Source of the DNA: an uncultured Mediterraneibacter sp.
Lineage (GTDB): Bacteria; Bacillota; Clostridia; Lachnospirales; Lachnospiraceae
Reading direction: 5' to 3'
NCBI RefSeq assembly: GCF_934309415.1
Contig: NZ_CAKRDI010000022.1
Span: 1-48,698, forward strand
DNA: 48,698 nucleotides
The stretch's first letter is position 1, and each line of letters opens with the position of its first letter. Positions 4,378 through 20,235 of this stretch are shown here, one piece after another. Below the pieces are notes generated by a model. That model did not search any database, had not been told where the DNA came from, and worked only from the letters and a program-made list of their open reading frames with translations. The position numbers and the translations under genes are program-made.

Positions 4378-5491
4378 TATTTTTATAACCTATTGAAATA
4401 TATCTATCAAAAATGCCCAACACCAAAAACATAATAGCAATCGGTTCAATTTCTGTCATCATATCTATTCCTATCCCCATCAACGCTGCCTTCATGATAG
4501 AAACACCTTTACTTTTTGCTAAGTCATTTTCCAATTTACGTTCTTTCATTCCTATATATACATACATCGTATAAAATAAAACTAATAATAGTAAGCCCCC
4601 ATTTATAAGTAATTGCAAAATTTGATTATGTGCAACATATTGCAAATGTGCCAGTTCTCCATAACCATATCCCAACACAGGTGAACGCCAAAACTTACTA
4701 ATCGCTGCAGCCCATATATATGTTCTTCCCGTCAATGTTGCATCTTTACCCAAAAAATCAAGTACACTTTGAAATATAGGTGAAACTCCTGCTAGAACCA
4801 ATATAATTGAAGCTAAATTTGTCCCAATATTAGTAATAAAATATGGAATTCTTCTTTTTTTTCCTTTTTGACTCCACATATAAATTATAAGGAACAAGAA
4901 CCATGCAATCATACCAGTTCCTGACCATACAAGCACTTCTGAAACAGAACATACAAGACATAAATAAATAATTCTTCCACGTACATTTATCTGATATAAC
5001 TCACTGTACAACACAGTTAATACAATTGTTATGATATAATAGATTGTAATTCCATTTGAATCAATGATAAATACACTATCATCTGCCTCTAGCCCCTTAA
5101 TAAATACACCAATTAAAAGACTCAGGAAATTTATACTACACAGGAGTCCAAAATATTTATATCCAATCTTAACAATTTGTCTAAAACTTATAATCTCACA
5201 TGTTAATAAAATTGGCATGCCTAAGTTGTTAAATATTTCAACTACACACCTGTAAATCTGTTTATTCCCCAAAAATGTTGAGATAAATAAACTCAAATTG
5301 AAAATAAACATAAGCATAAATAATGAAGAAATATTTCTTTTTTTGATCAATATCATTAACAAATACGTAAAGCCTATCATCTGAATTATATTACACAGTA
5401 ATTTAATCACAGAATATGCCATCAACATGTTGGGCGGATACGATGCAAATATAAATAGAAATAACAAGATATCTGTTTTTCTTATTTTCAT
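4340..5491 (-). CDS. wzy: Wzy-like polysaccharide polymerase (O-antigen ligase family)
   Basis: 383 residues, almost entirely hydrophobic, with ten or more membrane segments. In the C-terminal half, GRTYIWAAAISKFWRSPVLG is followed by AHNQILQLLINGGLLLL, matching the long periplasmic loop and the HNxxLQ motif of the O-antigen ligase/polymerase superfamily. The start has GGGAGAG about 8 nt upstream. In a Gram-positive cluster with a Wzx flippase the likely role is polymerisation of lipid-linked repeat units outside the membrane. Ligase and polymerase members are hard to separate by sequence, so the Wzy call leans on context. Confidence 0.85.
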   Translation of the reverse strand: MKIRKTDILLFLFIFASYPPNMLMAYSVIKLLCNIIQMIGFTYLLMILIKKRNISSLFMLMFIFNLSLFISTFLGNKQIYRCVVEIFNNLGMPILLTCEIISFRQIVKIGYKYFGLLCSINFLSLLIGVFIKGLEADDSVFIIDSNGITIYYIITIVLTVLYSELYQINVRGRIIYLCLVCSVSEVLVWSGTGMIAWFLFLIIYMWSQKGKKRRIPYFITNIGTNLASIILVLAGVSPIFQSVLDFLGKDATLTGRTYIWAAAISKFWRSPVLGYGYGELAHLQYVAHNQILQLLINGGLLLLVLFYTMYVYIGMKERKLENDLAKSKGVSIMKAALMGIGIDMMTEIEPIAIMFLVLGIFDRYISIGYKNNEYGSKDREKYE

Positions 5492-5511
5492 GTATTATCT
5501 CTCCCAATATT

Positions 5512-6438
5512 TCATTTTCCCTTAAACATATCATAAAATCTATTTCTAATACTTCCAATTTTAAGAGCTGAAGCAATAAATCCTCTCACGTCTCTTTTAG
5601 ATTCAACAATATCCCATTCATCTAAAAAACAATTCTTTTGTTCTGACCATGGACCTGTAAAGTAATGTGAAGGTCTAATCACATATAAGTTTTTTTTAGG
5701 GTTTAGCAATGCCCCCATCATTGAAAAAGTACTATTAGCTATTATTTGTGCATCACATTTTGTCATACAGCACATATCTTCAACCAATGATCCCCTCACT
5801 AAAACACTATCAAACTGCTTTATAAATTTGTCTACAGTCTTGTTCTTTTTATCACAGAAAACAATAAATTTTACTTTTCCATATTTATTTATCATTCTTT
5901 TTGCTGCATTCGTCCAGTAATCTGCTGCCATCAAAAAGCCTAGCAATAAATAATTTTCGCCCACTCTAAAATGAACAGATACAACCGTTGCATTGGGATT
6001 TTTTTTTCGAATATTATTGATAATATTCTCTGATTTTTCGTCAATTTCTTTTGGAAATTGAAACCATTTCCGTACTTCATCAATCCTATGATAAAAATAC
6101 TTCGGGCAGATAAAATGACCTTTCATATACGTATTATCTTCAATTTCTTCTGCCTCTTTATAATAAAAACTATCATATTTTTTTATGTACTCAAATTCCT
6201 CGTGTTCCGTAAATTCCGTCGTATTAATAACTTTCAATTCTTCTTCTTTTGGAATATTAAAAATTGTGTCAAAATCTCGACCATATTTTTTATCTACAGA
6301 ACTATATGAACTTTCTGAAGCTGAACAATGTTCGTGAATATATTTAAATTCAAAACCCTTATCTTTAGCAATTGATTTAACAGATGCGTATGCAAACATT
6401 TGATTTGCCAATAAACTTGTAATTCTTGCAACAACCAT
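5512..6438 (-). CDS. Divergent GT11-like (fucosyltransferase-related) glycosyltransferase
   Basis: 308 residues. The architecture follows GT11: an N-terminal LLANQMFAYASVKSIA in place of GGLGNQMFQYA, a central VSVHFRVGENYLL in place of HIRRGDY, and a C-terminal IIANSTFSMMGALLNP in place of the NSSFSWW motif. The second Arg and the Asp of RRGDY are replaced, so donor handling could differ from the canonical enzyme at 1474-2343. A fucosyltransferase is likely given the GDP-fucose genes nearby, but another donor is possible. It lies between a GT2-like transferase and the polymerase with short gaps, and an AGGAGA site precedes the start. Confidence 0.65.
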   Translation of the reverse strand: MVVARITSLLANQMFAYASVKSIAKDKGFEFKYIHEHCSASESSYSSVDKKYGRDFDTIFNIPKEEELKVINTTEFTEHEEFEYIKKYDSFYYKEAEEIEDNTYMKGHFICPKYFYHRIDEVRKWFQFPKEIDEKSENIINNIRKKNPNATVVSVHFRVGENYLLLGFLMAADYWTNAAKRMINKYGKVKFIVFCDKKNKTVDKFIKQFDSVLVRGSLVEDMCCMTKCDAQIIANSTFSMMGALLNPKKNLYVIRPSHYFTGPWSEQKNCFLDEWDIVESKRDVRGFIASALKIGSIRNRFYDMFKGK

Positions 6439-6452
6439 TTATATTTCTCCTA

Positions 6453-7271
6453 TTATTTACCTAACAATATTCTTACATATGGGGATAAACTATACACAAT
6501 TGCAGTTAAAAAATTATAATTTTTTAACAAATAATGAAACCATGCTTTATTGGGAGTTCCTTTTTCATTATTTTTTATTGCAAAACGTCTTCTTCTAGAA
6601 AGAGACTTATCTCTCCAGCTTCCATGTTCAGTTGTTTCATCACATATTCCACAAAAAAAATTGGAAACATACAATTTTATTCCTTTTCTAGAAGCATTAA
6701 ATCCATAATCATAATCTCCCATCCCATGAACATAAACTGGATCAATATTATCCAATTTCAAAAAAGTATTAAATTCAATAAGTACACAATTTGCATTAAA
6801 TGTGTCGCAAGTTATAAGCTTACTTTCGTCACTATATACAATTTCACACTTAGGAATCCATTTTGAGAGTTTATTCACTCCCGCATATGTAAGTTTTCCG
6901 TCTGATCCGCAAGTTGCTCCAACCAAAATCCTGTATTCAGGCTTAAATAATTTAAGCATTCTTTCTATTGCATTATCAAAAAAAGTAACATCATCGTTAA
7001 AAAACATACAATAGTCATAATTCTTTCTTTTTTTTGCTTTATCAATCGCCATTCTCATACCACCGGAATAAAACAAGTTTCCATTCCCTTCAATAATAGT
7101 AACCTGCTCAAATTCTTCTAACATTAATTTCGTTCCATCAGTACTTCCGTCATCTACGATTATAAAATCAAACTGAATATTGGGATTACCTTTAATTAAC
7201 GTCTCTAAACATTTTTGAGTTTTCTCACACCGATTGTGGCACGTTGCTAATGCTAAAATTTTCTTATCCAC
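6453..7271 (-). CDS. GT2 family glycosyltransferase (rhamnosyltransferase-like)
   Basis: About 272 residues when started at the GTG at 7271, which has AGAAGGAAG 9 nt upstream. The in-frame ATG at 7328 would overlap the acetyltransferase by 41 bp. The protein opens with ILALATCHNR and has FIIVDDGSTDGT (nucleotide-sugar binding), EGNGNLFYSGGMRMAI, and FFNDDVTF carrying the DxD-like metal site. This combination is typical of GT2 enzymes of the WbbL/rhamnosyltransferase group that build surface polysaccharide repeats. The sugar transferred is not determined, since no dTDP-rhamnose genes are in the window. Confidence 0.85.
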   Translation of the reverse strand: MDKKILALATCHNRCEKTQKCLETLIKGNPNIQFDFIIVDDGSTDGTKLMLEEFEQVTIIEGNGNLFYSGGMRMAIDKAKKRKNYDYCMFFNDDVTFFDNAIERMLKLFKPEYRILVGATCGSDGKLTYAGVNKLSKWIPKCEIVYSDESKLITCDTFNANCVLIEFNTFLKLDNIDPVYVHGMGDYDYGFNASRKGIKLYVSNFFCGICDETTEHGSWRDKSLSRRRRFAIKNNEKGTPNKAWFHYLLKNYNFLTAIVYSLSPYVRILLGK

Positions 7272-7287
7272 TATTTTCAACTTCCTT

Positions 7288-7863
7288 CTATCTAATTTTT
7301 CTTGCTGGATTTCCAGCCCATACTTCATCTTGCGGAATATCCTTGGTTACCACAGATCCAGCTCCAATAATAGCTCTTTTTCCAATACGTACTCCTTTCA
7401 AAACTATACAATTCGCTCCTATAAATACCCCATCACCAATGTTTACTGGGGATGTTATTCCTCCACCTTCTGAATTACGTTTGTAATAATCAAGCCAATG
7501 AAAATCTGTGTCGTAAATTTTACTCCCCCCACCAATAAGTACATTTTCTCCGATAGTAATATTTTCTTTCGCACATATAGCACAATTAGATATTCCTGTA
7601 TTATTTCCTATCTGTATTTTTGCACCTTTGCCTGCATAAAGAATCGTTCTTGTATCTCCACCTATTGGATTACTTTTTAAACTTGAATTGATAACTACAT
7701 TATTTCCTAATACTATCAAATTCTCTTCAGACGCTACACAATATATTCTGCCATTTATATTTACATTATTCCCAACCTTTACTTTACGGTAATAGAAAAC
7801 GAATTTATTATATAAATCATTGGGGATTTTCCTCACTTTTATTAAAATGGATTTAATATTCAT
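7288..7863 (-). CDS. Hexapeptide-repeat acetyltransferase (left-handed beta-helix)
   Basis: 191 residues with repeated isoleucine/valine-glycine hexapeptides (IGNNTGISNCAI, IGENVLIGGG, IGDGVFIGANCIVLKGVRIG). It ends in the family tail GAGSVVTKDIPQDEVWAGNPA, which contains the acetyl-CoA binding loop. It belongs to the WbbJ/LacA/CysE group of trimeric O- or N-acetyltransferases. In this setting it probably acetylates a sugar of the repeat unit in the cytoplasm. The start overlaps the upstream transferase gene by 11 bp. The precise acceptor is unknown. Confidence 0.9.
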   Translation of the reverse strand: MNIKSILIKVRKIPNDLYNKFVFYYRKVKVGNNVNINGRIYCVASEENLIVLGNNVVINSSLKSNPIGGDTRTILYAGKGAKIQIGNNTGISNCAICAKENITIGENVLIGGGSKIYDTDFHWLDYYKRNSEGGGITSPVNIGDGVFIGANCIVLKGVRIGKRAIIGAGSVVTKDIPQDEVWAGNPARKIR

Positions 7864-8884
7864 ATTCTTTCTTCCTTTTTAAATAATTACTAATCTTAAC
7901 TCCCAATTCATAAAAAGCTTTCTTTTTATTCCCTTTTAAGATTTTATATACAAAGCTTTCAAGTGTACGATAAATTTTAATAAAAGTACTATTCCATCCA
8001 TACACTTTATAAGAACGATCCTGATAAGTATAATCTTCGATCACATATTTAGGATGTTTCAAATCTGTCTGTATTTCATATGTTTCCAGCATAAATAGTT
8101 TTCTATATCCTTTAGGTAGAGTATCTAACTCGCTCTGTGTATGTGTTGCATCTCCGGTTAATCCAACATTCAATACCATATTCTTTTTAGGTACTATAGT
8201 AAGACCCGAATTTAAATATTGATTCAAAATCATGATTGTTTCAAAATGAGGGATTTTAGATTTTTTATGTACAAAACAGCTATTCATAAAATCGTTTGCA
8301 AAATTATTTTTCTTAATTTTTCCATTTATGAGTTTCCGAGTATACTCTTCATCAAGTACTGCATATTCTTCATCCCATGTATTTATAACTCGTCTCCAAG
8401 AAGCCCAACATCCAACGGTAAATGTTGTACTTGTAAAGAAGTAATCATATGGACAATACTCTGTAATTGCATCAACGTTTAATCCTGTGATAAGCATAAC
8501 TCGTTGATCATTTTCATATTTATCCAATAATTCTTTACAGAAAGAGAAAAAAGAAACTGATGGAATGTCATCATCCTCTATTACAATGCACTTCTCTGTA
8601 TATGAAAAAGCCCATGTTTGAGCAAGATATCCAGATGGATCACACCCCATATTCTTTTCTTGATATAATCTATGTACTTCACATTCCCAGTCAACTTGGT
8701 CGGCAATCGCCCTACATTTTTCTATATTAATAATGTCGTCGTCCCGTCCTGCTCTAGGACCATCCTGATATAAAAATAATCGACTTGGTCTCGCTTTTCT
8801 TACTTGTTCAAAAACTTTCTGAAATTGTTCATGTCTAGTAAAAAAAACAAGCAATACCGAAACATCAACTAATGCTTCTTTCAT
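7853..8884 (-). CDS. GT-A type glycosyltransferase with EDDD motif
   Basis: 343 residues. The N terminus VSVLLVFFTRHEQFQKVFEQ is followed by RLFLYQDGPR and then CIVIEDDDIPS at about residue 110, the metal-binding acidic cluster. TVGCWASWRRV in the middle resembles the GnT-I/'hemolysin activation' type of glycosyltransferases found in exopolysaccharide clusters. It probably adds one sugar of the repeat unit on the cytoplasmic face. GGGAGGAAAAA precedes the ATG. Donor and linkage cannot be inferred. Confidence 0.75.
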   Translation of the reverse strand: MKEALVDVSVLLVFFTRHEQFQKVFEQVRKARPSRLFLYQDGPRAGRDDDIINIEKCRAIADQVDWECEVHRLYQEKNMGCDPSGYLAQTWAFSYTEKCIVIEDDDIPSVSFFSFCKELLDKYENDQRVMLITGLNVDAITEYCPYDYFFTSTTFTVGCWASWRRVINTWDEEYAVLDEEYTRKLINGKIKKNNFANDFMNSCFVHKKSKIPHFETIMILNQYLNSGLTIVPKKNMVLNVGLTGDATHTQSELDTLPKGYRKLFMLETYEIQTDLKHPKYVIEDYTYQDRSYKVYGWNSTFIKIYRTLESFVYKILKGNKKKAFYELGVKISNYLKRKKEYEY

Positions 8885-8896
8885 TTTTTCCTCCCA

Positions 8897-10072
8897 TCAC
8901 TCAAAAAAGGTTATCCATTTAGTATCTGAAACCTTTTCTTCCTTTTGTAGTTCTAATGTATACTTATTTCGTATAGTTTCCGATGTAATTATTTCTTTTA
9001 AGTTCTCGTAAACGCTGTCTACGCTTATCGAAGCAATTGATCCATTTTTTCTGTTTTCTAGCTGTTCGCGCGCCCCTGAAACATCTGTAGTCAAAATAGG
9101 TTTATTAAAAATTTTAGCTTCTGAAACAGTTGTTACATACCCTTCATGTCTAGATGTTTGAACATAAATATCACAATGACAAAAATAGGGGTACGGGTTC
9201 ATTCTTGTACCTAAAAAATGAAAATATTCTTGTACTTCTCTCCTTCTAAGTTCTTCATACAAAGTTTTTTTTTCGCTTCCATCTCCTAGAACAAACCATT
9301 GAAATTTAAAACCTTCCTTTGCTAACCTTTCGCATACTTCAATTGCAATATCATATCCCTTTCGTTCTTCAAGACATCCAACAGTCAATATCTTTAATTG
9401 ACTAACTTTTTGAAATTCTTTCGGATAAAATTCTTTTGATTTATCAAGAATTTTTTCTACAGGTATCATGTTTAAAGCAACCTGCGTTTTTTTTGAATAT
9501 TCTGGTAACTGTTTCTTAAATTCATCTGCCAAATTTTCTGCTACTGCAAAGAAATTATCTACACATTCAAGATATTTCTTCAGATTTACAATATTATATC
9601 CTGTGGTCACAAAATCATTATGTATCCATGTATATTTTATTTTTGCTTCAACTTTTTCAGCCAAATATCGTACTAAAAATGGCGAATGCATATGATAATT
9701 CACTGCAATATCATACTTTTCATTCAACTTTGGTATCTTATTAAAATTAATATTTAATTCTGCAAACTCAGTTTTTCCAATAAAGTGAGTTATAAAAAAT
9801 TTTGTTGCATGAAGATACCTTTTCCTTTCAATACATTCTCTTATTGACACCTTTGTTCCACCAACAGGAATATTTTTTCTAATCTTTTCATTCATTGGGA
9901 TTTTCTTTAACAAAACATTGTCCGGAATTTTATTAATAAATTCTCCCTTATCCGTTATAACATATATCGTTACACTATTCCCTCTTTTTATTAATTCTTC
10001 GGAAAGTGTAATTAATGTATTTTCAACTCCTCCACAAAGCATCCATTGAACAAAGAAAGCTATTCTTTTCAT
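8897..10072 (-). CDS. GT4 family glycosyltransferase
   Basis: 391 residues with the two-domain GT-B layout of GT4. The N-terminal domain opens with IAFFVQWMLCGGVENTLITL. The C-terminal domain has ILTVGCLEERKGYDIAIEV, then YPYFCHCDIYVQTSRHEGY with the GT4 E-x7-E type region, and ILTTDVSGAREQL. Retaining enzymes of this family use nucleotide-activated hexoses. It sits 5 bp after the preceding GT4 gene, with AGAGG before its ATG. It likely adds an internal sugar of the polysaccharide repeat. Confidence 0.87.
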   Translation of the reverse strand: MKRIAFFVQWMLCGGVENTLITLSEELIKRGNSVTIYVITDKGEFINKIPDNVLLKKIPMNEKIRKNIPVGGTKVSIRECIERKRYLHATKFFITHFIGKTEFAELNINFNKIPKLNEKYDIAVNYHMHSPFLVRYLAEKVEAKIKYTWIHNDFVTTGYNIVNLKKYLECVDNFFAVAENLADEFKKQLPEYSKKTQVALNMIPVEKILDKSKEFYPKEFQKVSQLKILTVGCLEERKGYDIAIEVCERLAKEGFKFQWFVLGDGSEKKTLYEELRRREVQEYFHFLGTRMNPYPYFCHCDIYVQTSRHEGYVTTVSEAKIFNKPILTTDVSGAREQLENRKNGSIASISVDSVYENLKEIITSETIRNKYTLELQKEEKVSDTKWITFFE

Positions 10073-10077
10073 ATAAT

Positions 10078-11241
10078 TTAAACCTCTGAGTAAATATTCC
10101 TTATAATTTTATAATTAGTCTCTTCCGTATATTTATCTATATAATCGTTCAATGTAATCCTCACCAAGCCCTTACATCTGTTCACTGCCCCAATTAAGTC
10201 ATAACTTGAATTCACTTCAAACTTGCGACCTGTTATTCCCTCACTAACAATACTCCCCGCATTTCCCAGATCCGAACAAATAACCGGTGTTCCAACACTA
10301 AACGCTTCCACGATGCTCATCGGAAATCCTTCATACCACTGAGTCGGCAATATTAATCCCCTGCTATAAGCAATCAATTTTCTTGTTTCTTCATTCGGTA
10401 CAAACCCTCGCAGCTCCACATTTAGTCCATTCTCTGTAACATACTCTTTGCACCATTCTTCCATTGGACCGGTTCCACAGACGATAAGTTTTGGGGCATT
10501 CTCCCCCATCTGTTTCCATGCTTTCAAAAGAAGATCAATTCCTTTTAATTTATCTAGTCTTCCAGCAAATATAAATTGATCTTTTCTTTTTTCTTCTGGA
10601 ACAAATTCACCAATACTCTCCACAAAATTAGGCTTTACAAAAACTTGTTCTTCTTTAATCTGTTTTAACTCAAGCAATTTCCTTTTATTAAATTCTGTCA
10701 GACAAATATAATTGATTTTCCCATATATTCCTGTCATTCGATGAATCTGAGTACTGATCACGCATGCTAAAGTCTGAATCTTACTTCCACGGTAACAGCT
10801 ATGTTTTACTGCACATTTCAATCCATGTTGGACACAATCTTCACATATATGTCCATCTCTGTAAAAGGTCGCCCCTGGACAAAGTAGACGGAAATTGTGA
10901 ATTGTCTGCACTACAGGTATTTTCATAGCTCTTGCCGCATAATAAACCGAAGGGCTAATTAAATTCAAAGTATTATGTACATGAACTATATCTATCTTTT
11001 TTTCTTTTATAATTTTTTTAATCTCTCGATATGTTCGCAAATTAAAAATCGTAGAAAATGGGAGAAGTGATTTCTGAAACTTCCCCATAGTTTTTAATTC
11101 TGAATTATTTCTTGAATACAGTGTTACATCATGACCATGTTCTTCGAGCATTTCCTTTTCATTTGCAACAACTGTATCTTCTCCACCTGGTATCTGATAA
11201 TAGTTGTGAACTATGAGAATCTTTTGTTTTTTATCTTCCAT
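10078..11241 (-). CDS. GT4 family glycosyltransferase
   Basis: About 387 residues from the ATG at 11241, chosen because GAGGGG lies at good distance and the start falls 2 bp after the tagA stop. An upstream ATG at 11271 would overlap tagA. The N-terminal ILIVHNYYQIPGGEDTVVANE is the glycan-binding loop seen in GT4 exopolysaccharide transferases. The C-terminal domain has FIFAGRLDKLKGIDLLLKAW and LPTQWYEGFPMSIVEAF (donor-binding EGFP...E). CEDCVQHGLKCAV forms a small Cys-rich loop often seen in this subgroup. It probably adds the third sugar after TagA. Confidence 0.87.
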   Translation of the reverse strand: MEDKKQKILIVHNYYQIPGGEDTVVANEKEMLEEHGHDVTLYSRNNSELKTMGKFQKSLLPFSTIFNLRTYREIKKIIKEKKIDIVHVHNTLNLISPSVYYAARAMKIPVVQTIHNFRLLCPGATFYRDGHICEDCVQHGLKCAVKHSCYRGSKIQTLACVISTQIHRMTGIYGKINYICLTEFNKRKLLELKQIKEEQVFVKPNFVESIGEFVPEEKRKDQFIFAGRLDKLKGIDLLLKAWKQMGENAPKLIVCGTGPMEEWCKEYVTENGLNVELRGFVPNEETRKLIAYSRGLILPTQWYEGFPMSIVEAFSVGTPVICSDLGNAGSIVSEGITGRKFEVNSSYDLIGAVNRCKGLVRITLNDYIDKYTEETNYKIIRNIYSEV

Positions 11242-11243
11242 TC

Positions 11244-12035
11244 TTACTTTCCCCTCACAACCGCATTCCAAATAAACTTCGTATTCGTCACCAGATACCT
11301 CTTAAACAACCTCTTTGGATCCTGCATCAACCGATACAGCCACTCCAGATTGCTCTTCTGCATCCATTCCGGTGCGCGTTTGATGTTTTCCGCATAGTAA
11401 TCAAATCCAGCACCAACACCTATCATTAATCCATCAATTTGACCATAATGAGCCGCCATCCATTTTTCCTGTTTTGGAGCTCCAAGTCCAATCCACACAA
11501 AATCTGGTTTTGTTTCATTGATTCTTTCAACAATTGCCTGATTTTCTTCCTCTGTCATTGGTCGAAACGGTGGACTGTACATTCCGGCAATCTGAATTCC
11601 CGGATAATGATCCGTAAGTTTTTGATAAAGCAGTTCCAGTGTTTCCTCTGTACTGCCATAAAAATAATGACGGTATCCTTTCTCTGCTGAGATTTTAAAA
11701 ATCTCTCCCATCAAGCTCGGTCCTGTTGTTCTTTCCATATCTTTGAAACCGCGCTTCTGACCTACAGTAGAAAGAGGACCGCCATCTGGTATCGCCATCA
11801 GTCCTCCGTTCTGAATGGCGCAATAGGATGCATCTTCATAACTAGTTACCGTTGTATGTACATTTGAAACACATATATAATCGCCTTTTATGTCAGAAAG
11901 ATTCTGTGCGAGGTAAGCCAATAGCCACTCCATATTAATTGCTGCAATATTTACACCCAGAATGTTACAAGTAGGAATTAATTCCTTATTGACAATTCTT
12001 TTATATGTAACTTTCCGTGAATTATCTTTTGACAT
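11244..12035 (-). CDS. tagA: WecG/TagA/CpsF family glycosyltransferase (GT26)
   Basis: 263 residues with family motifs CNILGVNIAAINMEWLL, CVSNVHTTV, IPDGGPL, GYRHYFYGSTEETLE and PDFVWIGLGAPKQEKWM. Family members transfer ManNAc, ManNAcA or a hexose to undecaprenyl-diphospho-GlcNAc and so perform the second step of a lipid-linked glycan. As the first transferase gene in the transcription order it probably acts directly after the initiating phosphoglycosyltransferase, which is not in the window. An AAAGG site precedes the ATG. TagA activity in wall teichoic acid synthesis is the main alternative, but the downstream Wzx/Wzy genes favour a polysaccharide. Confidence 0.88.
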   Translation of the reverse strand: MSKDNSRKVTYKRIVNKELIPTCNILGVNIAAINMEWLLAYLAQNLSDIKGDYICVSNVHTTVTSYEDASYCAIQNGGLMAIPDGGPLSTVGQKRGFKDMERTTGPSLMGEIFKISAEKGYRHYFYGSTEETLELLYQKLTDHYPGIQIAGMYSPPFRPMTEEENQAIVERINETKPDFVWIGLGAPKQEKWMAAHYGQIDGLMIGVGAGFDYYAENIKRAPEWMQKSNLEWLYRLMQDPKRLFKRYLVTNTKFIWNAVVRGK

Positions 12036-12122: not shown

Positions 12123-12710
12123 TTACGATACGCTTTCAGAATATTCACTATTGCTCTGCACTCTCACTTTTATCTCCCCATCCACCTTCATCACTTCAAA
12201 CACCAGTGGATGTTCTTTCCCCCATTCCGGGTTCTCCTGCTCTTTCTGATTCCACTCTTTCCATCTCTTGATAAATCCGTTATGAATCAGATTCTCTGCC
12301 GCAAGTCTTGCCTGTACTGCCTCATCATAGTTATCAAACAATCCGACATAATATCGTTTGCCTTTGAATCCGATATCTACTCTGTAGCGATTACAGTTCT
12401 TTAACCGAAATACTCCGCGGAATCCGCTTGCATTGTCTTTTCTGCTCTTTCTTTTTTCCAGAACTTCCACGCAGGTTCCGTCAATCAGATGGCGCCGCAT
12501 CGGAATTTCTTTTCGATTCTTGCGCTGCAGACATCCGCAGCTGTGACTGTTTCCGTGCATCAGTGCTGCTGCCGTCACATCCGTTTCGTTTCCGCAGTCA
12601 CAGACGCAATGCCAGTAGATTGATCCACGGTTATCTCGTTTTTCTAACGGATACTTTGCCGTCAGTTTTCCGAATTTCTGTTCTCGCAAATCTGCCGCTT
12701 TTCTTCCCAT
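12123..12710 (-). CDS. AP2/ERF-like domain protein with Cys-rich N-terminal module
   Basis: 195 residues from the ATG at 12710, preceded by GGAG about 10 nt away; homologues of this type commonly begin MGRKAADL. Residues about 30-65 hold WHCVCDCGNETDV and HSCGCLQR, a probable zinc-binding knuckle. The middle carries an AP2-like DNA-binding domain (GFRGVFRLKNCNRYRVDIGF, then GLFDNYDEAVQA). Such proteins are usually carried by phages or mobile DNA. Here it is the first gene downstream of the putative invertible promoter and 88 bp before tagA, so it could regulate the cluster or bind the inverted sites. Both roles are inference, and a stranded mobile gene is the alternative. Confidence 0.75.
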   Translation of the reverse strand: MGRKAADLREQKFGKLTAKYPLEKRDNRGSIYWHCVCDCGNETDVTAAALMHGNSHSCGCLQRKNRKEIPMRRHLIDGTCVEVLEKRKSRKDNASGFRGVFRLKNCNRYRVDIGFKGKRYYVGLFDNYDEAVQARLAAENLIHNGFIKRWKEWNQKEQENPEWGKEHPLVFEVMKVDGEIKVRVQSNSEYSESVS

Positions 12711-12733: not shown

Positions 12734-12760
12734 TTTCGTAGATTACATAACTTTACGAAA
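12734..12760 (+). repeat. Left inverted site of the putative invertible segment
   Basis: A 27-bp dyad built as 11-bp arm, 5-bp centre, 11-bp arm: TTTCGTAGATT, ACATA, ACTTTACGAAA. The arm-spacer-arm layout with an asymmetric centre resembles crossover sites of tyrosine recombinases. It lies 24 bp upstream of the AP2 start. Confidence 0.8.
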
Positions 12761-13043
12761 TGCCTGTTTTCCTTGATAAATCGCCATGGACAATTTCTCT
12801 GACCATTTTTTTGACGGCGAATCATTGCCTGGAAAACCAATAAGATGAACGAATTTCTTTAAAAGTTGTCTCTGATTTTGATACAAATATGTAATTTTTG
12901 AATTGTGTCTGAACTGACAAGATATTTGACGGTAAATAAATTGTTTTCTTGATTATTTAAATTTGTATTTGTGAAATATGAACAAATTAATGCTCTTAGC
13001 TTTATTAGAATTGCACTCAAGAGATGAATTTTGAGTATAATCA

Positions 13044-13072
13044 TTGACATACGATTTTAATAAGTGTAGAAT
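13044..13072 (+). promoter_or_regulatory. Strong sigma-A promoter inside the putative invertible segment
   Basis: A perfect -35 TTGACA at 13044-13049 and a -10 TAGAAT at 13067-13072 are separated by 17 bp, predicting a start near 13080 on the plus strand. No plus-strand gene follows. The transcript would cross the right inverted site and meet the terminator at 13211-13264, so in this orientation the promoter appears to serve nothing. Confidence 0.75.
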
Positions 13073-13121
13073 GATTCAGTAAAAGTTTATAAAATTATTA
13101 GATAATTTAGACTATTTTCTC

Positions 13122-13148
13122 TTTCGTAAAGTTATGTACTCTACGAAA
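13122..13148 (-). repeat. Right inverted site of the putative invertible segment
   Basis: Inverted partner of 12734-12760: arms TTTCGTAAAGT and ACTCTACGAAA around TATGT on the plus strand. Read on the minus strand it differs from the left site at a single base. Confidence 0.8.
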
Positions 13149-13210
13149 TTTTTTATTTTAAGATGCTTCCCAATATCTGATACACTACTCTTCGACTTCC
13201 ATTGCTATAG

Positions 13211-13264
13211 TATATAAAAGGGGCGCAGACAACTCATAAAAATTGTCTGCGCCCCTTTTATATA
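13211..13264. terminator. Strong bidirectional intrinsic terminator
   Basis: Perfect 22-bp inverted arms (13211-13232 and 13243-13264) surround a 10-nt loop. The GC-rich core is GGGGCGCAGACAA, with A/T tracts on both outer sides. It would end the fucose-donor operon coming from the right and also stop the rightward promoter of the invertible segment. Confidence 0.92.
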
Positions 13265-13370
13265 CAGTACGCCAAGCATTTTCATGCATACTCCAGCCCA
13301 TAACCAGACAAAGTAACTGCATAAATGCACATAAACCTAATCTTTTTTACAATATCAATTAGACTTCCCT

Positions 13371-15044
13371 TTACTTCAAATACTCTTCCGCACTCTTACA
13401 AATCTCTCCCTCAACCGTTTCCGCAACTTCCTTATTCTCCGCACTCACAGAAATATAAGTCTTAAGTTTCGGTTCCGTACCGGAAGGTCGTACAACAATA
13501 GAACAATTATCTTCCAAAAGGAATTTCAACACATCAGACTTCGGCAATTCATCCAGTCCCTGTGCATAGTCCAGCAGTTTTACTACTTTCTTTCCGCCAA
13601 ACTCCTGAATATTTTCACGGAATTTCTGCATAATACTCTGCATCTTTGCAAATCCGGCACTGCCATCAAATTCATAGCTGTGCAGGGTATTCAGACAATA
13701 GCCGTAAGTCTTATACAGTTCCTCCAGCTTCTCCAGAAGACTGATTCCGTGAGTTGCATAATAGCTGAACATCTCACAGATCATATAGGCAGCATTCACG
13801 CCATCCTTATCACGAACATAAGAACCGGTCAGATAACCGTAACTTTCTTCAAAGCCAAACACATAGCTGTCAGCCTTTCCCTGCTGTTCCAATCTGCCGA
13901 TTTGTTCACCGATAAATTTAAAACCGGTCAACACGTTGATGGTTTTTAATCCATAATGTGAGGCAATCTGCTCTCCCATGTCCATAGTAACAATGGTTTT
14001 GACCATCACCGGATCGGCAGGCATCTTGTCGTGTTTGATACGCTGGCTGCAGATATAATCCAGCAGTAACATGCCTGTCTGGTTTCCAGTCAGCAGTTCA
14101 TACTCTCCCACCTTGTTCTTGACTGCGATACCTACACGGTCACAGTCCGGATCCGTTGCCAGCAGCAGATCCGCATTACACTTCTTAGCATATTCCACGC
14201 CAAGAGCCATTGCTTCTCTGATTTCCGGGTTCGGGTACGGGCAAGTCGGGAATTTTCCGTCCGGCTGCTCCTGTTCTTTAACGACTGTGATGTTAGTATA
14301 TCCCATTTCTCTGAGAGTACGGGTTACAGGTTTCAGACCGGTACCATTCAGCGGACTGTATACAATCGCAACATCTTTATTGACTTCTTCGCCAAACAGC
14401 ACTGACTGGTTTCTAACTTCATTTACAAAAGCAGTGTAGACTTCATCCGGGATATACTGAATATTGCCATTTGCAAGACCTTCCTCAAAATCACTCTTTT
14501 TTACATCTGCAAATAGATCCAGCTTTTCGATTTCTGCCAGAATCTCAGCGGCAGCTTTTGTCGTGATCTGACATCCGTCTGCACCGTAGACCTTATATCC
14601 GTTGTATTTACTTGGATTGTGGGAGGCAGTAACCATAACACCTGCTGAAGTATGCAGATAACGGGTTGCAAAAGACACAGTCGGTACCGGCATTAGAACC
14701 GGCCAGATATTAACTTTGACACCATTGGCAGCGAATACTCCTGCCGCAACCTTTGCAAATACATCGCTCTTAATACGACTGTCATACCCAATGGCTACAG
14801 ACGGCTCTGCAAAGTTTTTATTCAGGTAGTCTGCCAGTCCCTGAGATGCCTTTGCCACAGTATAGATATTCATACGGTTCGTACCTGCACCGATCACACC
14901 GCGCAACCCACCTGTTCCAAAAGCAAGATCCCGATAAAATGCATCTTCAATTTTCACATCATCCAGCGTTTTCAGTTCTGCTGCAACATCTGCATCTTCT
15001 GTTGCTTTTTCCAGCCAACGCTCATATTCTTTTTTATAATCCAT
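13371..15044 (-). CDS. Phosphohexomutase (phosphoglucomutase/phosphomannomutase family)
   Basis: 557 residues from the ATG at 15044, where family members begin (MDYKKEYERWLEKA). The 76 codons upstream stay open only because they read through a hairpin element. The catalytic serine loop TASHNPSKYNGYKVYG, the metal loop DPDCDRVGIAV, the sugar-binding loop GFEESYGYLTG and the phosphate loop RPSGTEPKLKTY are all present. The enzyme interconverts hexose-6- and hexose-1-phosphates. Between manA and manC functions, mannose-6-phosphate to mannose-1-phosphate is the expected job here, although family members often act on glucose phosphate. It is the last gene of the operon before the terminator. No strong ribosome site is visible at this start. 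Confidence 0.9.
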   Translation of the reverse strand: MDYKKEYERWLEKATEDADVAAELKTLDDVKIEDAFYRDLAFGTGGLRGVIGAGTNRMNIYTVAKASQGLADYLNKNFAEPSVAIGYDSRIKSDVFAKVAAGVFAANGVKVNIWPVLMPVPTVSFATRYLHTSAGVMVTASHNPSKYNGYKVYGADGCQITTKAAAEILAEIEKLDLFADVKKSDFEEGLANGNIQYIPDEVYTAFVNEVRNQSVLFGEEVNKDVAIVYSPLNGTGLKPVTRTLREMGYTNITVVKEQEQPDGKFPTCPYPNPEIREAMALGVEYAKKCNADLLLATDPDCDRVGIAVKNKVGEYELLTGNQTGMLLLDYICSQRIKHDKMPADPVMVKTIVTMDMGEQIASHYGLKTINVLTGFKFIGEQIGRLEQQGKADSYVFGFEESYGYLTGSYVRDKDGVNAAYMICEMFSYYATHGISLLEKLEELYKTYGYCLNTLHSYEFDGSAGFAKMQSIMQKFRENIQEFGGKKVVKLLDYAQGLDELPKSDVLKFLLEDNCSIVVRPSGTEPKLKTYISVSAENKEVAETVEGEICKSAEEYLK

Positions 15045-15120
15045 TTCTATCACGCATAATCCAATCAGCATCAAATGATAATTAGATTGATTCCTTTCTC
15101 TTTCTACTTTTCTAAAATCT

Positions 15121-15268
15121 GTCTTAAAAATGCTTTCTGCAAGACGTATGCCATAATTTGTGAGAGATTTTACCTGTATAAAGGCGACATAACGTGCTAC
15201 GTCAACCGAATAAAGGTAAAATTTCTCGCAAAACGGGACGTACAAATTGCAAGAATGATTTTTAAGAC
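15121..15268. repeat. 148-bp imperfect inverted-repeat element (hairpin family 2)
   Basis: Two arms of about 70 bp pair imperfectly around a centre near 15193. The left arm begins GTCTTAAAAATGCTTTCTGC, and the complement of the right arm begins GTCTTAAAAATCATTCTTGC. Both arms also share TTTTACCT further in. It lies between the manA stop and the phosphohexomutase start. Related termini occur at 17845-17914. Confidence 0.75.
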
Positions 15269-15273
15269 ACACT

Positions 15274-16260
15274 CTACCCTCTCACATCCAGAAACTGTGC
15301 CTGTCCCTGAATAGTCAGCACTTCTGAATCTGCCGGAACGAAGATACAGTCTCCTTTGTAAAATTCCATATCCCCATCTTCATAAATAATTCTGCCGCAT
15401 CCATTGACGCACAACAACACACGGAATGCAACTTCATCCGCACGGTAATGCACCTGCTGCCGTCGCTCTGTATTTACCAGCATCCGATACACTTCAAAAT
15501 ATTTGCAGCGTGTCAGAAGTTCGGAGGCAACTCCCTGGCGGTATTTCAACACACGAAGAGGCTGTCTTGGTTCTGCACTGCTTTTCAGATTTGCCACCTG
15601 CAATGCTTTATCTATATGAAGTTCTCGTTTCTTTCCATCTTTCCCTACACGGTCGTAATCATACAAACGATAGGTCAGATTGGAATTTTCCTGAATCTCT
15701 GCTACCAGTACACCTGCCCCGACCGCGTGGATGGTTCCTGCTTCTATAAAGAACAGATCATCCTTTTTAACCGGAACCTGTTGCAGATAATTCATAATTC
15801 TTCCTTTTTCAATCGCACGCCGCATCTGCGTCTCAGAATAGGACCGTTTTAGTCCATACACCAGCTTTGCATCTTTACTTGCGTCCAGCACATACCACAT
15901 TTCCGTTTTACCAAGCTGTCCATTCTCATGTTCTTTGGCATATTCATCGGTAGGATGCACCTGTACGGACAAATCCTTCTTTGCATCGATTAATTTAATC
16001 AGAATTGGCAGTTCATTTTTCCCTTTGTGCCGCTCTCCCAGATACTCCGGATATTTCCGCAGCACCTCTGCCAGTTCCAGTCCGTCAAATGTACCGCCAA
16101 CTACATAACTCGGACCATCCGGATGGGTAGAACACTCCCAGGTCTCTGCCAGCGGAGTCAGGTCAATCCCTTTTGCAAATTCATCATTGAGTCTGCTTCC
16201 GCCCCAAAGATAATCTTTGCCGGAGGGACGAAGCAAGAGAGGCATCTTTTTATCACTCAT
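15274..16260 (-). CDS. manA: Mannose-6-phosphate isomerase, class I
   Basis: 328 residues, the short class I form found in Firmicutes. LRPSGKDYLWGGSRL opens the protein. QVHPTDEYA, TEMWYVLDA and AGTIHAVGAG carry the zinc ligands (His, Glu, His). It converts fructose-6-phosphate to mannose-6-phosphate, the entry step to GDP-mannose. It follows manC by 28 bp in the same direction. Its stop codon sits directly against the hairpin element at 15121-15268. Confidence 0.93.
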   Translation of the reverse strand: MSDKKMPLLLRPSGKDYLWGGSRLNDEFAKGIDLTPLAETWECSTHPDGPSYVVGGTFDGLELAEVLRKYPEYLGERHKGKNELPILIKLIDAKKDLSVQVHPTDEYAKEHENGQLGKTEMWYVLDASKDAKLVYGLKRSYSETQMRRAIEKGRIMNYLQQVPVKKDDLFFIEAGTIHAVGAGVLVAEIQENSNLTYRLYDYDRVGKDGKKRELHIDKALQVANLKSSAEPRQPLRVLKYRQGVASELLTRCKYFEVYRMLVNTERRQQVHYRADEVAFRVLLCVNGCGRIIYEDGDMEFYKGDCIFVPADSEVLTIQGQAQFLDVRG

Positions 16261-16288
16261 TGAATTTTCCCTTTACTTTTTTACTGTA

Positions 16289-17605
16289 TTAATACTCCAG
16301 TTCATATTTCTGCTTGTCATGAACATTGATATCCTCACCAAGCTGTACCTCGATCATTTTCAGCTCCGTCTCAGCGATCACGGTATGACGGCAGCCCGCA
16401 GACATTGTGATCACATCGCCAATCTTGACACTCTGCTCCATGCCATCCACGATCGTTTTTCCTTTTCCGGAAATCACTGCCCACACTTCATCACGGTTCT
16501 TGTGGCTGTGGTAATTCATTCTGTGTCCCGGATTCAATGTCACTTTGATTGTCACGGATTGGCTGTCAATATCAATGACACGGAAGCTTCCCCAGGATTT
16601 TTCTGCGAACATGACGCGGTGATCCAGTGTGCTTACAAATGGCTTGATATAGGAACTCTGCTCCTTATCTGAAACCAGGATTCCTTCCGGAGATGCAGAA
16701 ACTACAACATCCTTCAGCCCCATACAAAGGATTGGGACATCCAGTTCGTTGACAACATGGACATTTTCACAGGTTTCATTGAACATTGCCTCGCCCACTG
16801 CCTGACTGTCCATCGCCTCGGTCAATGTATTCCACGTACCAAGATCCTTCCATGTGCCTGCGAAGCGCATCACTTCGATTTCCGGTTCATGTTCCACAAC
16901 TGCATAGTCGAAACTGATTTTATTCAGTGTCTCATATTTGTTAAATAAATCTGTATAATCGATAAAATCGATCAGCTCATGGGCACGCTGCAATACATAG
17001 CCAAGCTTAAATGCAAAGACGCCGCCGTTCCACAATGCGCCTTTGGCTATGTAATCTTTTGCAACTTCCTGCGTCGGCTTTTCCTTGAACACGGAGACTT
17101 TGCTGACCTGTTCTTTGCCGGTTGGGATAATGTAACCATATTTTTCACTCGGATAAGTCGGCTCAATCCCCATCAGCACAAGGTTGGCACTGCTGACTTC
17201 TGCTCTCTCTCCCAGCTCTTTCAACGCCTCAAAATAATCATTTTCCACATATGGGTCAACCGGGCATACAACTACAGATTCTTCTTCCTCAACTCCCAGC
17301 ACATCTTTCAGATAAGAAGCGGCAAGCGCGATGGCTGGAAATGTATCGCGGCGGTATGGTTCTACACTGATACCAACATCTTCTCCCAGCTGATTATAAA
17401 TAGCAGATACCTGTGACTTTGAGGTTGCGATCGTCACTGTCGCATCTGTATCAACTGTCTTGATCTGACGGTATACACGCTGCACCATGGATTCCAGCGA
17501 ATCGTCTTCTTTATGAAAAATCTTGATAAATTGCTTGGACCGGATCTCATTGGAAAGCGGCCACAGACGCTGACCGGAACCACCGGATAATAAAACTAAA
17601 TTCAT
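16289..17605 (-). CDS. manC: Mannose-1-phosphate guanylyltransferase with C-terminal cupin
   Basis: 438 residues. The N-terminal nucleotidyltransferase domain has LSGGSGQRLWPLSNEIRSKQF and the FKEKP motif. The C-terminal cupin (MNYHSHKNRDEVW, then VIAETELKMIEVQLG) is the isomerase-like extension of type II enzymes. It forms GDP-mannose from GTP and mannose-1-phosphate. The enzyme may keep some isomerase activity, which would overlap with manA. It lies 314 bp after fcl, with a hairpin and a repeat element between, so it may have its own promoter. Confidence 0.93.
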   Translation of the reverse strand: MNLVLLSGGSGQRLWPLSNEIRSKQFIKIFHKEDDSLESMVQRVYRQIKTVDTDATVTIATSKSQVSAIYNQLGEDVGISVEPYRRDTFPAIALAASYLKDVLGVEEEESVVVCPVDPYVENDYFEALKELGERAEVSSANLVLMGIEPTYPSEKYGYIIPTGKEQVSKVSVFKEKPTQEVAKDYIAKGALWNGGVFAFKLGYVLQRAHELIDFIDYTDLFNKYETLNKISFDYAVVEHEPEIEVMRFAGTWKDLGTWNTLTEAMDSQAVGEAMFNETCENVHVVNELDVPILCMGLKDVVVSASPEGILVSDKEQSSYIKPFVSTLDHRVMFAEKSWGSFRVIDIDSQSVTIKVTLNPGHRMNYHSHKNRDEVWAVISGKGKTIVDGMEQSVKIGDVITMSAGCRHTVIAETELKMIEVQLGEDINVHDKQKYELEY

Positions 17606-17655
17606 AACTATTCTCCTCGTATATCTAACTCACCCAATGTATGTTATAAAAATGA

Positions 17656-17683
17656 GCCGTATCCATACCACTACGGATGCGGC
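17656..17683 (-). terminator. Hairpin with short T-run between fcl and manC
   Basis: A 9-bp stem (17656-17664 with 17675-17683, one G-U pair) surrounds a 10-nt loop and, on the minus strand, is followed by TCATTTTTAT. It could partially end the gmd-fcl transcript ahead of manC. Confidence 0.5.
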
Positions 17684-17844
17684 CCAACTAATAAATACAT
17701 TACTTTCAAAATAACTGCCTCATGCTTCTGTCTGTGAATCTGATTGTTCAGTAAAATTTCAACAGAACACACTACTCCTATGTTTTTATCTTAGGAATCG
17801 AATTCTCATTCTGTGTGAGTCAGTTATTTATGAAACACTGTAGT

Positions 17845-17914
17845 AGAGTATGTCTGAAAATACTTTCTGCAAAATGGGGATGCAATTGCTGGAATGATTT
17901 TTCTGACACACTCT
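17845..17914. repeat. 70-bp hairpin element related to 15121-15268
   Basis: Inverted arms of about 28 bp (17845-17872 and 17886-17914) have ends AGAGTATGTC and GACACACTCT. The outer sequence matches the element after manA (tgtct-AAAAAT-tt-GCAA pattern). It lies a few bases beyond the fcl stop codon, exactly as its relative lies beyond the manA stop. The rest of 17606-17919 holds only the hairpin at 17656-17683. Confidence 0.7.
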
Positions 17915-17919
17915 GACTT

Positions 17920-18864
17920 CTATCTTTCTGCGCGCATCGGATTATTCAGGAAGTCTTCGTAAGACAGGCGCAGTCCGTCTTCCAGTTCTGTCTTGTAACT
18001 CCATCCGAGATTTGTTGCCTTGGAAACATCCAGTAACTTACGCGGTGTACCGTTCGGTTTTGTAGTATCCCACTCGATGGTTCCGGTATAGCCTACAACC
18101 TTTGCCACCAGTTCTGTCAGTTCTTTAATCGTCAGTTCTTTTCCTGTACCGGCATTGACTGTCTCATTGCCGGAATAATGGTTCATCAGGAAGACGCACA
18201 GATTTGCAAGATCATCCACGTATAAGAATTCACGCAGCGGGGATCCATCACCCCAGCAGGTAACGCTTTCTACTCCATTAACTTTCGCCTCATGGAAACG
18301 GCGGATCAATGCCGGAACTACATGACTGTGCGTCGGATGATAGTTATCGTTCGGTCCATACAGATTGGTCGGCATAACCGAAATGTAATCTGTTCCATAC
18401 TGACGGTTCAGGAACTCACAGTATTTCAGGCCGGATATCTTAGCCAGCGCATAGGCCTCATTTGTTTTCTCCAGTTCGCTTGTGAGCAGGCAATCCTCTT
18501 TCATCGGCTGAGGAGCCATACGAGGGTAAATGCAGGAAGAACCGAGGAATTCCAGTTTCTTACAGCCATTCTTCCATGCGGAATGGATCGCATTCATTTC
18601 CAGTGTCATGTTGTCATACATAAAATCTGCCAGTGCTTCCTGGTTTGCCACGATACCACCAACTTTTGCAGCTGCAAGGAACACATACTCCGGTTTTTCT
18701 TTTGCGAAGAATTCTTCCACTGCATCCTGACGTGTGAGATCAAGTTCTTTATGTGTGCGGGTAATAATATTGGTATATCCCTGACGCTCCAGTTCACGGA
18801 CAATCGCAGATCCTACCATTCCGCGATGACCTGCAACATAGATTTTTGCATTTTTTTCCATCAT
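17920..18864 (-). CDS. fcl: GDP-L-fucose synthase
   Basis: 314 residues, typical for the family. The Rossmann loop [14 protein letters not shown], the LGSSCIYPR motif with catalytic Ser/Cys, and [13 protein letters not shown] with the Tyr-x3-Lys pair are present. It epimerises and reduces GDP-4-keto-6-deoxymannose to GDP-L-fucose using NADPH. It follows gmd by 18 bp. The second Met (18861) could be the true start. Its product is the donor for the GT11 enzymes. Confidence 0.95.
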
Positions 18865-18882
18865 TTTTATTTGCCTTCTTTC

Positions 18883-19932
18883 TTACAGAACTGATTTCAT
18901 GGCCTTCTCACGTTTTGCAAGTTTGCGGTCATGTTTTGCCATAATTTCAACAAGCTGCTCATAAGTTGTGGACTGCGGATTCCAGCCAAGTACTGTCTTT
19001 GCCTTTGTCGGATCTCCCCACAGGTTATCTACGTCTGTCGGACGAAACCATTGTGGATTGACACATACAAGCATCTTGCCTGTCGCTGCATCGTATCCTT
19101 TTTCATCCACACCAGTACCTTCCCAGCGGATTGTAATGCCATTTGCTGCGAATGCTTTTTCTGTAAAATCACGGACTGTATGCTGAACACCGGTTGCAAT
19201 GACGAAATCATCCGGCTCGTCCTGCTGCATGATCAGCCACATACACTCAACATAATCTTTGGCATAACCCCAGTCACGCAGAGAATCCATGTTGCCCAGT
19301 TCCAGATGATCCTGCAGACCTTCTGCGATACGTCCGGCAGCCAGTGTGATCTTACGGGTAACGAAGTTCTCGCCACGGCGCTCGGATTCATGATTGAAGA
19401 GGATTCCATTTACTGCAAACATACCATAAGCATCACGGTATTCTTTCACCATCCAGAATCCATACTGCTTCGCTACTGCATAAGGAGAATATGGATGGAA
19501 CGGTGTTGTCTCACGCTGCGGAACTTCTTCCACTTTTCCGTACAGCTCAGAAGTAGAAGCCTGATAAACTTTGCATGTCTTTGTCAGACCACATACACGG
19601 ACAGCTTCCAGAATACGCAGGACACCAAGTGCGTCTACATCTCCGGAATATTCAGGAGCGTCAAAGGATACCTGAACGTGGCTCTGTGCTGCAAGGTTGT
19701 AAATCTCATCCGGTTTAATCTCTCCAACAAGACGGATCAGGCCGGAAGAATCAGACAGATCTCCATCATGCAGTGCGATTGCATTTTTCTCGATCAGATG
19801 ATCGATACGTGCTGTATTGGAAATAGATGCGCGGCGGACAATTCCGTGAACTTCATAGCCCTTCTCCAGAAGGAACTCTGCGAGGTAAGAACCATCCTGT
19901 CCGGTGATACCAGTAATTAATGCTTTTTTCAT
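18883..19932 (-). CDS. gmd: GDP-mannose 4,6-dehydratase
   Basis: 349 residues from the ATG at 19932, where the conserved [16 protein letters not shown] begins and AGAAAGG lies upstream. The in-frame ATG at 19989 adds an unconserved leader. [27 protein letters not shown] (Tyr-x3-Lys) and [16 protein letters not shown] are diagnostic. It makes GDP-4-keto-6-deoxymannose, the substrate of fcl. It is the first gene of the fucose-donor operon. Its promoter should lie in 19933-20235, but no box pair there is convincing. Confidence 0.96.
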
Positions 19933-20235
19933 TTTATTTATATACCTTTCTTTTATTGACTTTGTTTTCAGGTCTTGAGCGTACTTCAAAAACGCTCAGG
20001 TAACAGTTTAGCGTAAAAGCAGGTAGGAATTGAATGGCATAATATGGTGGATATTAGCACAATATTGGTTTTTTAAATTAGTTTCTGCGTATGAACGGCT
20101 GATTTAATTTCCGGAAAACCGAAAAGAACGATTCCTGACAAGCCAAACAATGGGCTGCAAAAGTTCATTAAGGCATAGAAATACCCTGCCAGCTTTTGCC
20201 AGCAGGGTTGATTGTTTTTTACTTGTGGAAGTCTT
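19933..20235. other. Upstream region of gmd; two small hairpins, otherwise nothing recognised
   Basis: GAGCGT/ACGCTC at 19977-19997 forms a short hairpin in the likely gmd leader. ACCCTGC/GCAGGGT at 20183-20208, followed by a T-run on the plus strand, looks like an orphan terminator. No promoter boxes of good quality were found. Confidence 0.5.

Follow-up and report, generated by a model that had tools for sequence, protein, structure and literature searches.

The 388-bp segment that precedes a polysaccharide operon in an uncultured Mediterraneibacter sp. is probably a promoter switch inverted by a tyrosine recombinase acting in trans, an enzyme that likely contacts the sites at both ends as well as two arm-type repeats within it. 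The stretch analyzed, referred to here as the window, comprises 48,698 nucleotides (contig NZ_CAKRDI010000022.1, positions 1 to 48,698). On comparison with other genomes, the window most likely holds a real invertible-promoter element belonging to an inverting family and flipped in trans by an arm-binding recombinase. The features of the switch are as follows.

12734..12760, no strand: recombination site 1, 11-bp arm, 5-bp core and 11-bp arm (inverted-repeat and pattern searches)
12800..12815, + strand: TGAC-N8-TGAC, putative arm-type repeat A, starting 66 nt inside the outer end of site 1
12915..12930, + strand: TGAC-N8-TGAC, putative arm-type repeat B, ending 218 nt inside the outer end of site 2
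13044..13072, + strand: predicted invertible promoter, TTGACA-17-TAGAAT, in the OFF orientation, which faces away from the operon (scan and conserved position)
13122..13148, no strand: recombination site 2, an inverted copy of site 1 (26/27) with a complementary core
13210..13265, no strand: hairpin with 23-bp arms, terminator-like on both strands (inverted repeat and folding)

Site 1 consists of the arm TTTCGTAGATT, the core ACATA and the arm ACTTTACGAAA. The two sites, each of 27 nt, are 96% complementary with matching cores, and 361 nt lie between their arms. Searching the window with the site pattern at ≤3 mismatches returned these 2 matches and none in 100 shuffles; the inverted 27-bp sites of the original prediction, said to agree at 26 of 27 positions, are therefore borne out beyond chance. 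The promoter fits the consensus at 11 of 12 positions. A promoter scan of the window alone found 4 sites where 3.9 were expected, no excess over chance; despite this, the promoter is credible because comparison with relatives shows its position to be conserved. The distance from the end of the -10 sequence to the outer end of site 2 is 76 nt in the window and 76, 73, and 85 nt in loci L014, L073, and L038, respectively, such that a placement of 73 to 85 nt is kept in all four recombinase-less segments of 388 to 424 bp among the site-pattern matches listed. Outward-facing promoters matching at ≥10 of 12 positions were identified in 15 of 22 oriented segments among the matches listed, against 3.0 expected from shuffles and 2 facing inward. 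The scan and the conserved placement also uphold the earlier claim that the promoter between the sites points away from the operon. As judged from the sequence, the promoter lies inside the segment and its target gene just outside.

Beyond site 2, arms of 23 nt (13210-13232 and 13243-13265) separated by a 10-nt loop fold at -39.1 kcal/mol (z, -11.9). This structure had been reported as a 22-bp-arm terminator at 13211-13264; the strong hairpin stands with slightly different arms, but the terminator scan of the window, which allows loops of 3 to 8 nt, gave no site there. The hairpin likely ends both read-through from pgm and the OFF transcript. In the ORF list no frame of ≥100 amino acids lies wholly within the segment, so the window does not carry a self-contained cassette of the Hin kind. 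The genes on either side are listed below.

129..11271, - strand: remaining polysaccharide operon (ORF list and Pfam)
11244..12035, - strand: WecG/TagA/CpsF glycosyltransferase (Pfam)
12123..12710, - strand: AP2-domain-like protein, operon gene 1 (Pfam, fold search, and homologs)
13371..19989, - strand: genes upstream of the switch, outside the segment (Pfam)

The first operon gene probably starts at the ATG at 12710, rather than at the TTG at 12731, because L014 of [Ruminococcus] faecis has ATGGGAAGAA in common with the window. Its label as AP2 is likely right, in that the best solved-fold matches to the protein model were the AP2 domains of Arabidopsis WRINKLED1 and TEM1, but these matches are weak (E values, 0.008 and 0.04; none at 0.001 or better in the fold search), and the Pfam AP2 match fell under the Pfam cut-off. 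The rest of the operon encodes glycosyltransferases (two GT4-type, one GT2, two GT11, and one GT-D-like), hexapeptide and acyl transferases, a Wzy-type polymerase/ligase, a flippase, and one family-less product. Upstream of the switch lie genes for a phosphoglucomutase/PMM, mannose-6-P isomerase, sugar nucleotidyltransferase, epimerase, and GDP-mannose 4,6-dehydratase, which presumably make GDP-mannose and GDP-fucose; GT11 is a fucosyltransferase family. As the hairpin separates these genes from the operon, the latter would need a promoter within the segment or close to it. The window also carries chromosomal genes, including rpoD and dnaG, and its rpoD-dnaG DNA is 83% identical to that of R. 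faecis (G001) and 82% to that of genome G422, the best of 58 genomes of the genus. Pfam scans of 40 of the window's 74 ORFs identified no recombinase.

To place the switch among relatives, a collection of genome contigs was scanned with both site arms and a free 5-bp core (consensus, TTTCGTARANT-N5-ANTYTACGAAA). The pattern was present in at least 111 genome stretches, mostly Clostridia by title, with a few from Prevotella, Alistipes, Paenibacillus, and Synergistales. The core census covered 99 loci in all, made up of matches listed, two viral contigs, and the window, and excluded 15 loci from the Chitinophagales MAG JAAFJT01. Within the 99 loci, 74 neighboring site pairs were found within 2 kb among the matches listed. 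In 70 of these 74 listed pairs the cores were exact inverted complements, in none were they direct, and in four they were neither; this count was made without requiring complementary cores, as an earlier list of matched pairs had done. There were 48 distinct cores among the matches listed, and these differences presumably keep separate loci from recombining with each other. A second site at ≤3 mismatches was lacking within 2 kb at 30 of the 99 listed loci, in some cases because the stretch ends. Matched pairs among the matches listed, the Chitinophagales arrays apart, fell into spacing classes of 148 to 253 bp, 388 to 424 bp, and 1.1 to 1.8 kb.

Within the genus, sites at ≤1 mismatch were found in 6 of 58 genomes. 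Genomes G005 and G006 carry 27 and 26 sites, respectively, at ≤2 mismatches, which form about 13 short pairs (178 to 180 bp) per genome with various cores. Arm repeats were absent from those short pairs that were checked, and the loci showed a single orientation relative to their flanks in the pairs compared. The JAAFJT01 sequences carry the palindrome TTTCGTAAATT-TTTCA-AATTTACGAAA at 15 loci among the matches listed, on many contigs, singly or often in short arrays spaced ∼41 to 82 bp (contigs include L018, L023, L025, L054, and L058). These palindromes are apparently unrelated to the switch, and the arrays were also left out of later pair counts.

The longest spacing class points to the enzyme. 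All 28 matched-core pairs of 1.1 to 1.8 kb among the matches listed enclose a tyrosine-recombinase ORF, the family being assigned by Pfam for 8, by alignment for 24, and by eye alone for the other 4. Residues R210, H318, R321, H344, and Y354 (L043 numbering) were invariant in all 24 aligned recombinases. These enclosed genes support the original suggestion that the sites suit a tyrosine recombinase. When the search was made from the recombinase side, 36 of 397 family genomes matched at an E value of 1e-80 and 30 loci were fetched; inverted 27-mers with ≤5 mismatches flank 20 of the 29 recombinase-homology loci with a script-found ORF, and the best of 54 shuffles, made for 18 of those 20 loci, had 6 mismatches. 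The N-terminal region of the recombinase was modelled as three strands and a helix, and the closest solved folds include Tn1549 Int and full-length lambda Int. Alignment, model, and solved folds together place an arm-binding-type N-terminal domain in the recombinases of the relatives; Pfam gave no arm-binding domain in these proteins. Recombinases lacking the N-terminal domain use the same kind of site in L001, L016, L035, L055, and L071, and in L087 the domain lies in another frame. In the genus survey, a recombinase match at an E value of 1e-50 was found in 9 of 58 genomes, mostly without an arm domain.

A candidate target for this domain was identified within the segments. The direct repeat TGAC-N8-TGAC occurs in 41 copies in 33 long segments among the matches listed, with 0.7 expected by shuffling; 22 of the 33 have it, and the 38 short segments listed have none. 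Eighteen of the 41 listed copies start 66 to 91 nt from the outer end of site 1, 20 end 172 to 297 nt from the outer end of site 2, and 3 lie elsewhere. After addition of the recombinase-homology loci, with classes fixed beforehand at 60 to 95 nt and 140 to 300 nt, the consensus of copy A was TGACcA.ttaTtTGACgg..AATa (30 copies) and that of copy B was TGAC.ataaTTTTGACgGc.AatA (36 copies), lower case denoting 50 to 75%. Of the A copies, 27 of 30 were at 66 to 74 nt. Such fixed spacing relative to the core sites is what arm sites would show.

Among the recombinase-homology loci, and scoring a repeat anywhere in the locus, 29 of the 34 whose recombinase has the N-terminal domain carried the repeat, against none of the 9 lacking that domain (Fisher, 3.6e-6, a nominal value, as the sequences are related). 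L190 (contig edge), L221, L222, and L227 (partial or split), and L223, L224, and L228 (weak) were left out of both groups. The five domain-bearing loci without a repeat are L202, L205, L209, L213, and L225; the nine armless loci include two near-identical pairs (L247/L248 and L250/L251) and one with an unrelated N-terminal extension (L206). Among the matches listed, the strict repeat was absent from 11 of the 33 long segments. Five of these encode the recombinases without the domain named above, four have the domain (L010, L077, L096, and one L079 cassette), and two have a degenerate or ambiguous N terminus (L076 and the second L079 cassette). It is inferred from these sequence comparisons that the N-terminal domain binds the TGAC-N8-TGAC repeats.

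Very stable hairpins lie between repeat A and site 1 in L043, L113, L192, L203, and L210 and could stop the recombinase transcript ahead of the target gene. A terminator at this position was rejected as a general feature, since only 8 of 31 loci had z below -2; the window gave -1.0.

Segments of the window's site family invert, as judged by paralogous loci on two contigs, L015 and L034, of one genome (MGBC000137). Their flanks match in reverse (91.7% over 2,496 bp and 92.8% over 221 bp), whereas the ∼1.4-kb cassette matches forward (95.0% over 1,378 bp), so one cassette has inverted relative to the other. The same pattern was found for one flank of L035 and L071, which come from two genomes and encode armless recombinases. 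Thirteen pairs of long-class loci could be matched in both flanks and segment, and only these 2 showed inversion. The orientation census, which took in 20 extra segments each with a flanking site pair, scored 21 loci as OFF, including the window, and 2 as ON by an automatic rule; at the remainder, genes led away on both sides (13), there were none (5), or orientation was lacking (12). Scoring by eye would add L034 and L168 as ON and L043 as OFF. The inverted cores, enclosed recombinases, and two inversions among relatives support the view that the window holds an invertible promoter in the OFF orientation. That it had been "caught" in OFF, as in a rare state, does not stand, as OFF is the usual state among relatives. 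OFF could be either a low-cost default or a sign of locking. The original interpretation also lacked the arm-type repeats and the self-contained recombinase cassettes, which mark a distinct class.

The window appears to be a recombinase-less copy of such a self-contained, armed switch, flipped in trans. The four recombinase-less segments of 388 to 424 bp (the window, L014, L038, and L073) all keep the outward promoter and at least two repeat copies each. GACCA-type repeats are common to two loci of genome G003, L038, which lacks a recombinase gene, and L219, a recombinase cassette; the two are 77% identical over 260 bp with a common flank, so the common repeat type may reflect plain descent. 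Bases TCCTCC or CTCCT-like often precede copy B, and on the other strand they resemble a ribosome-binding site. L038 retains CTCCTT before copy B, as in L219, where the other strand would read as a ribosome-binding site, and this suggests that recombinase-less elements arose by losing the recombinase gene. L208 and L214 each have an inverted pair (392 and 404 bp, respectively) with internal repeat(s) beside an armed recombinase; no outward promoter was identified at the usual place in either. Genome G004, which holds the recombinase-less L073, encodes a recombinase (L220) that has neither sites at its flanks nor repeats that match.

R. faecis G001 carries two site pairs at ≤2 mismatches, each directly before a homolog of the AP2 gene. 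The L014 promoter, like that of the window, faces away from AP2. The other, L168, is a recombinase cassette in which a promoter-like site (9/12) faces AP2; the assembly has the recombinase gene of L168 divided between two frames, so the gene may be dead there. After AP2, the L168 operon encodes a LoaP-family antiterminator, WecG, and pyruvyl transferases. The antiterminator gene (L168:10651-11178) is the second gene after the switch.

In the preferred reading, the window segment would invert between its 27-bp sites by the action in trans of an armed recombinase encoded in the same genome, the N-terminal domain of which would bind the internal TGAC-N8-TGAC repeats. The flip would place the predicted transcription start at ∼12803, ∼93 nt before the AP2 ATG, and would turn on the operon with its two GT11 genes, while the genes for GDP-fucose supply would stay upstream, outside the switch and behind the hairpin.

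The site could alternatively be an ordinary invertible promoter served by a simple armless recombinase, with the TGAC repeats being transcription factor sites, for example for a protein that regulates either the promoter or the recombinase gene. Armless recombinases using the same kind of site do exist (L016, L055, L035, L071, and L001), and the ribosome-binding-site-like bases by copy B are as at an autoregulatory site. This is nevertheless unlikely, as the repeats track the N-terminal domain of the recombinase, hold fixed positions relative to the sites at loci with widely differing target genes, and are retained in segments without a recombinase gene. A similarly low probability attaches to the segment being a fossil, once invertible and now locked OFF in a species with no fitting recombinase left. 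The 40 window ORFs free of a recombinase, the split R. faecis gene, the strong OFF bias among relatives, and the one mismatch between the window's two sites would all fit; yet the cores, repeats, and promoter of the window are intact, and in AT-rich intergenic DNA such features would presumably decay by drift.

That the cassettes are Tn916-type integrase transposons, and the window a recombinase-less derivative inserted upstream of AP2, is less probable still. In a Tn916-type element, the outer half of each end would come from the target, whereas here a complete two-arm site stands at both ends with cores that are inverted complements, and L015/L034 inverted in place with both flanks kept. Such an origin would agree with Tn1549 Int being the closest solved relative and with arm-binding recombinases being typical of mobile elements (PMC8138268). 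Least probable is that the palindromic sites are terminators or protein-binding sites that undergo no inversion. Both sites are able to fold as hairpins (-8.0 kcal/mol and a z of -3.4 for site 2 together with its T-run), but the cores vary between loci while remaining inverted complements within pairs (70 of 74 among the matches listed), the sites enclose recombinase genes, and the segments inverted relative to their flanks contradict it for the family.

An extended form of the preferred reading holds that a lambda-Int-type arm-binding integrase was converted in Lachnospiraceae to a promoter-inverting enzyme, its arm sites lying inside the segment, that the window is a stripped, nonautonomous copy flipped in trans, and that the AP2 protein, the first product of the operon, recognizes these TGAC repeats too and acts back on the switch. 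In this reading the AP2 protein and the arm-binding domain have DNA-binding folds of one class; for repeat binding, the modelled AP2-type fold is only a lead. Taken jointly, these propositions are unlikely.

Several known systems resemble parts of this arrangement. The capsule promoters of Bacteroides are phase variable, precede polysaccharide operons with UpxY antiterminators, and are served in trans by one recombinase, Mpi; UpxY occupies the position that the LoaP-family gene has in the R. faecis L168 operon. Phase-variable polysaccharide promoters, action in trans, and, in L168, an antiterminator after AP2 are thus shared. Mpi is a serine recombinase, whereas the enzymes enclosed in the relatives are tyrosine recombinases and the one serving the window would be too, probably with arm sites. 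In E. coli fimS, a tyrosine recombinase (FimB or FimE) flips a promoter segment of ∼300 to 400 bp; by description this is like the window in predicted enzyme type and in segment size, but FimB and FimE are short and lack an arm-binding domain. The Salmonella Hin cassette works through a serine recombinase and an enhancer bound by Fis; it is like those of the relatives in having an outward promoter and the recombinase gene within the segment that the enzyme inverts. The integrases of Tn916/Tn1549 and phage lambda have arm-binding-type N-terminal, core-binding, and catalytic domains and repeats near core sites, as here, but they integrate and excise mobile DNA, whereas here the gene lies inside a promoter cassette between inverted sites.

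Published descriptions offer further comparisons. The nearest published group is inverton group 139 of hCom2, with 33 invertons, 32 of them from Clostridia, linked to invertase group 35 (a tyrosine-type recombinase/integrase) and with flipping seen in reads (PMC11892184). Two members measure 231 and 241 bp start to start, and by description the group is alike in its clostridial hosts, tyrosine-type recombinase, and short-class lengths, such that it may correspond to the short class here; the account of the group mentions no arm repeats, whereas the window is of a longer class that has them (PMC11892184). An 844-bp putative invertible segment with 14-bp imperfect repeats encloses a recombinase gene, as do the cassettes here, and is described with no arm sites named; the same source gives the B. 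fragilis master recombinase as a serine type and C. difficile RecV as a tyrosine recombinase acting on more than one invertible switch (PMC5903667). The RecV switches are comparable by description in having a clostridial tyrosine recombinase, and arm sites are not mentioned in that account (PMC5903667). Arm-binding domains have been tied to mobile-element integrases in a report whose introduction names DNA inversion without reference to such a domain (PMC8138268). Among the open-access papers listed, none was by its title or opening abstract lines on arm-site invertible promoters.

If the preferred reading is true, a chromosomal family in which the arm domain goes together with arm repeats placed within an invertible promoter would be exceptional, and an unusual job for a phage-integrase-type enzyme; regulated flipping would be a testable consequence. 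A simple rule also follows for candidate phase-variable operons in Clostridia, surface-glycan operons among them: the site arms, a matched 5-bp core, and TGAC-N8-TGAC at ∼66 to 74 nt.

The first genes after other cassettes were varied (20 proteins from 17 loci scanned). Sugar-coat functions comprised a glycosyltransferase (L069), LytR-CpsA-Psr (L061), CpsB/CapC (L087), and a priming sugar transferase (L108); others were helicases, an NRPS, TnpB-like, regulatory, and several family-less genes. The self-inverting or derived cassettes L038:377-1744 and L104:2903-4219 adjoin TnpB-like genes (below the NCBIfam cut-off), and the flanks of L197, L198, L200, and L219 resemble that of L104; TnpB relatives beside cassettes are possibly phase variable. 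Cassettes in L015, L034 (by flank similarity), and L073 precede helicase/ResIII-domain genes, that of L015 having five helicase-associated (HA) repeats.

Two observations concern the genes upstream of the window's switch. The GTG-started phosphoglucomutase ORF (13371-15272) opens with a DUF6783 match (residues 3 to 59). The corresponding region, 15097-15276, sits in an imperfect 67-nt inverted repeat and has dozens of weak dispersed matches in G005 and G006; DUF6783 here looks like a translated dispersed repeat rather than a protein domain. Farther upstream, an RloB-like gene and an AAA ATPase gene (20399-22337), with best PADLOC matches to AbiLii and AbiLi, are likely an anti-phage defense pair beside the sugar genes.
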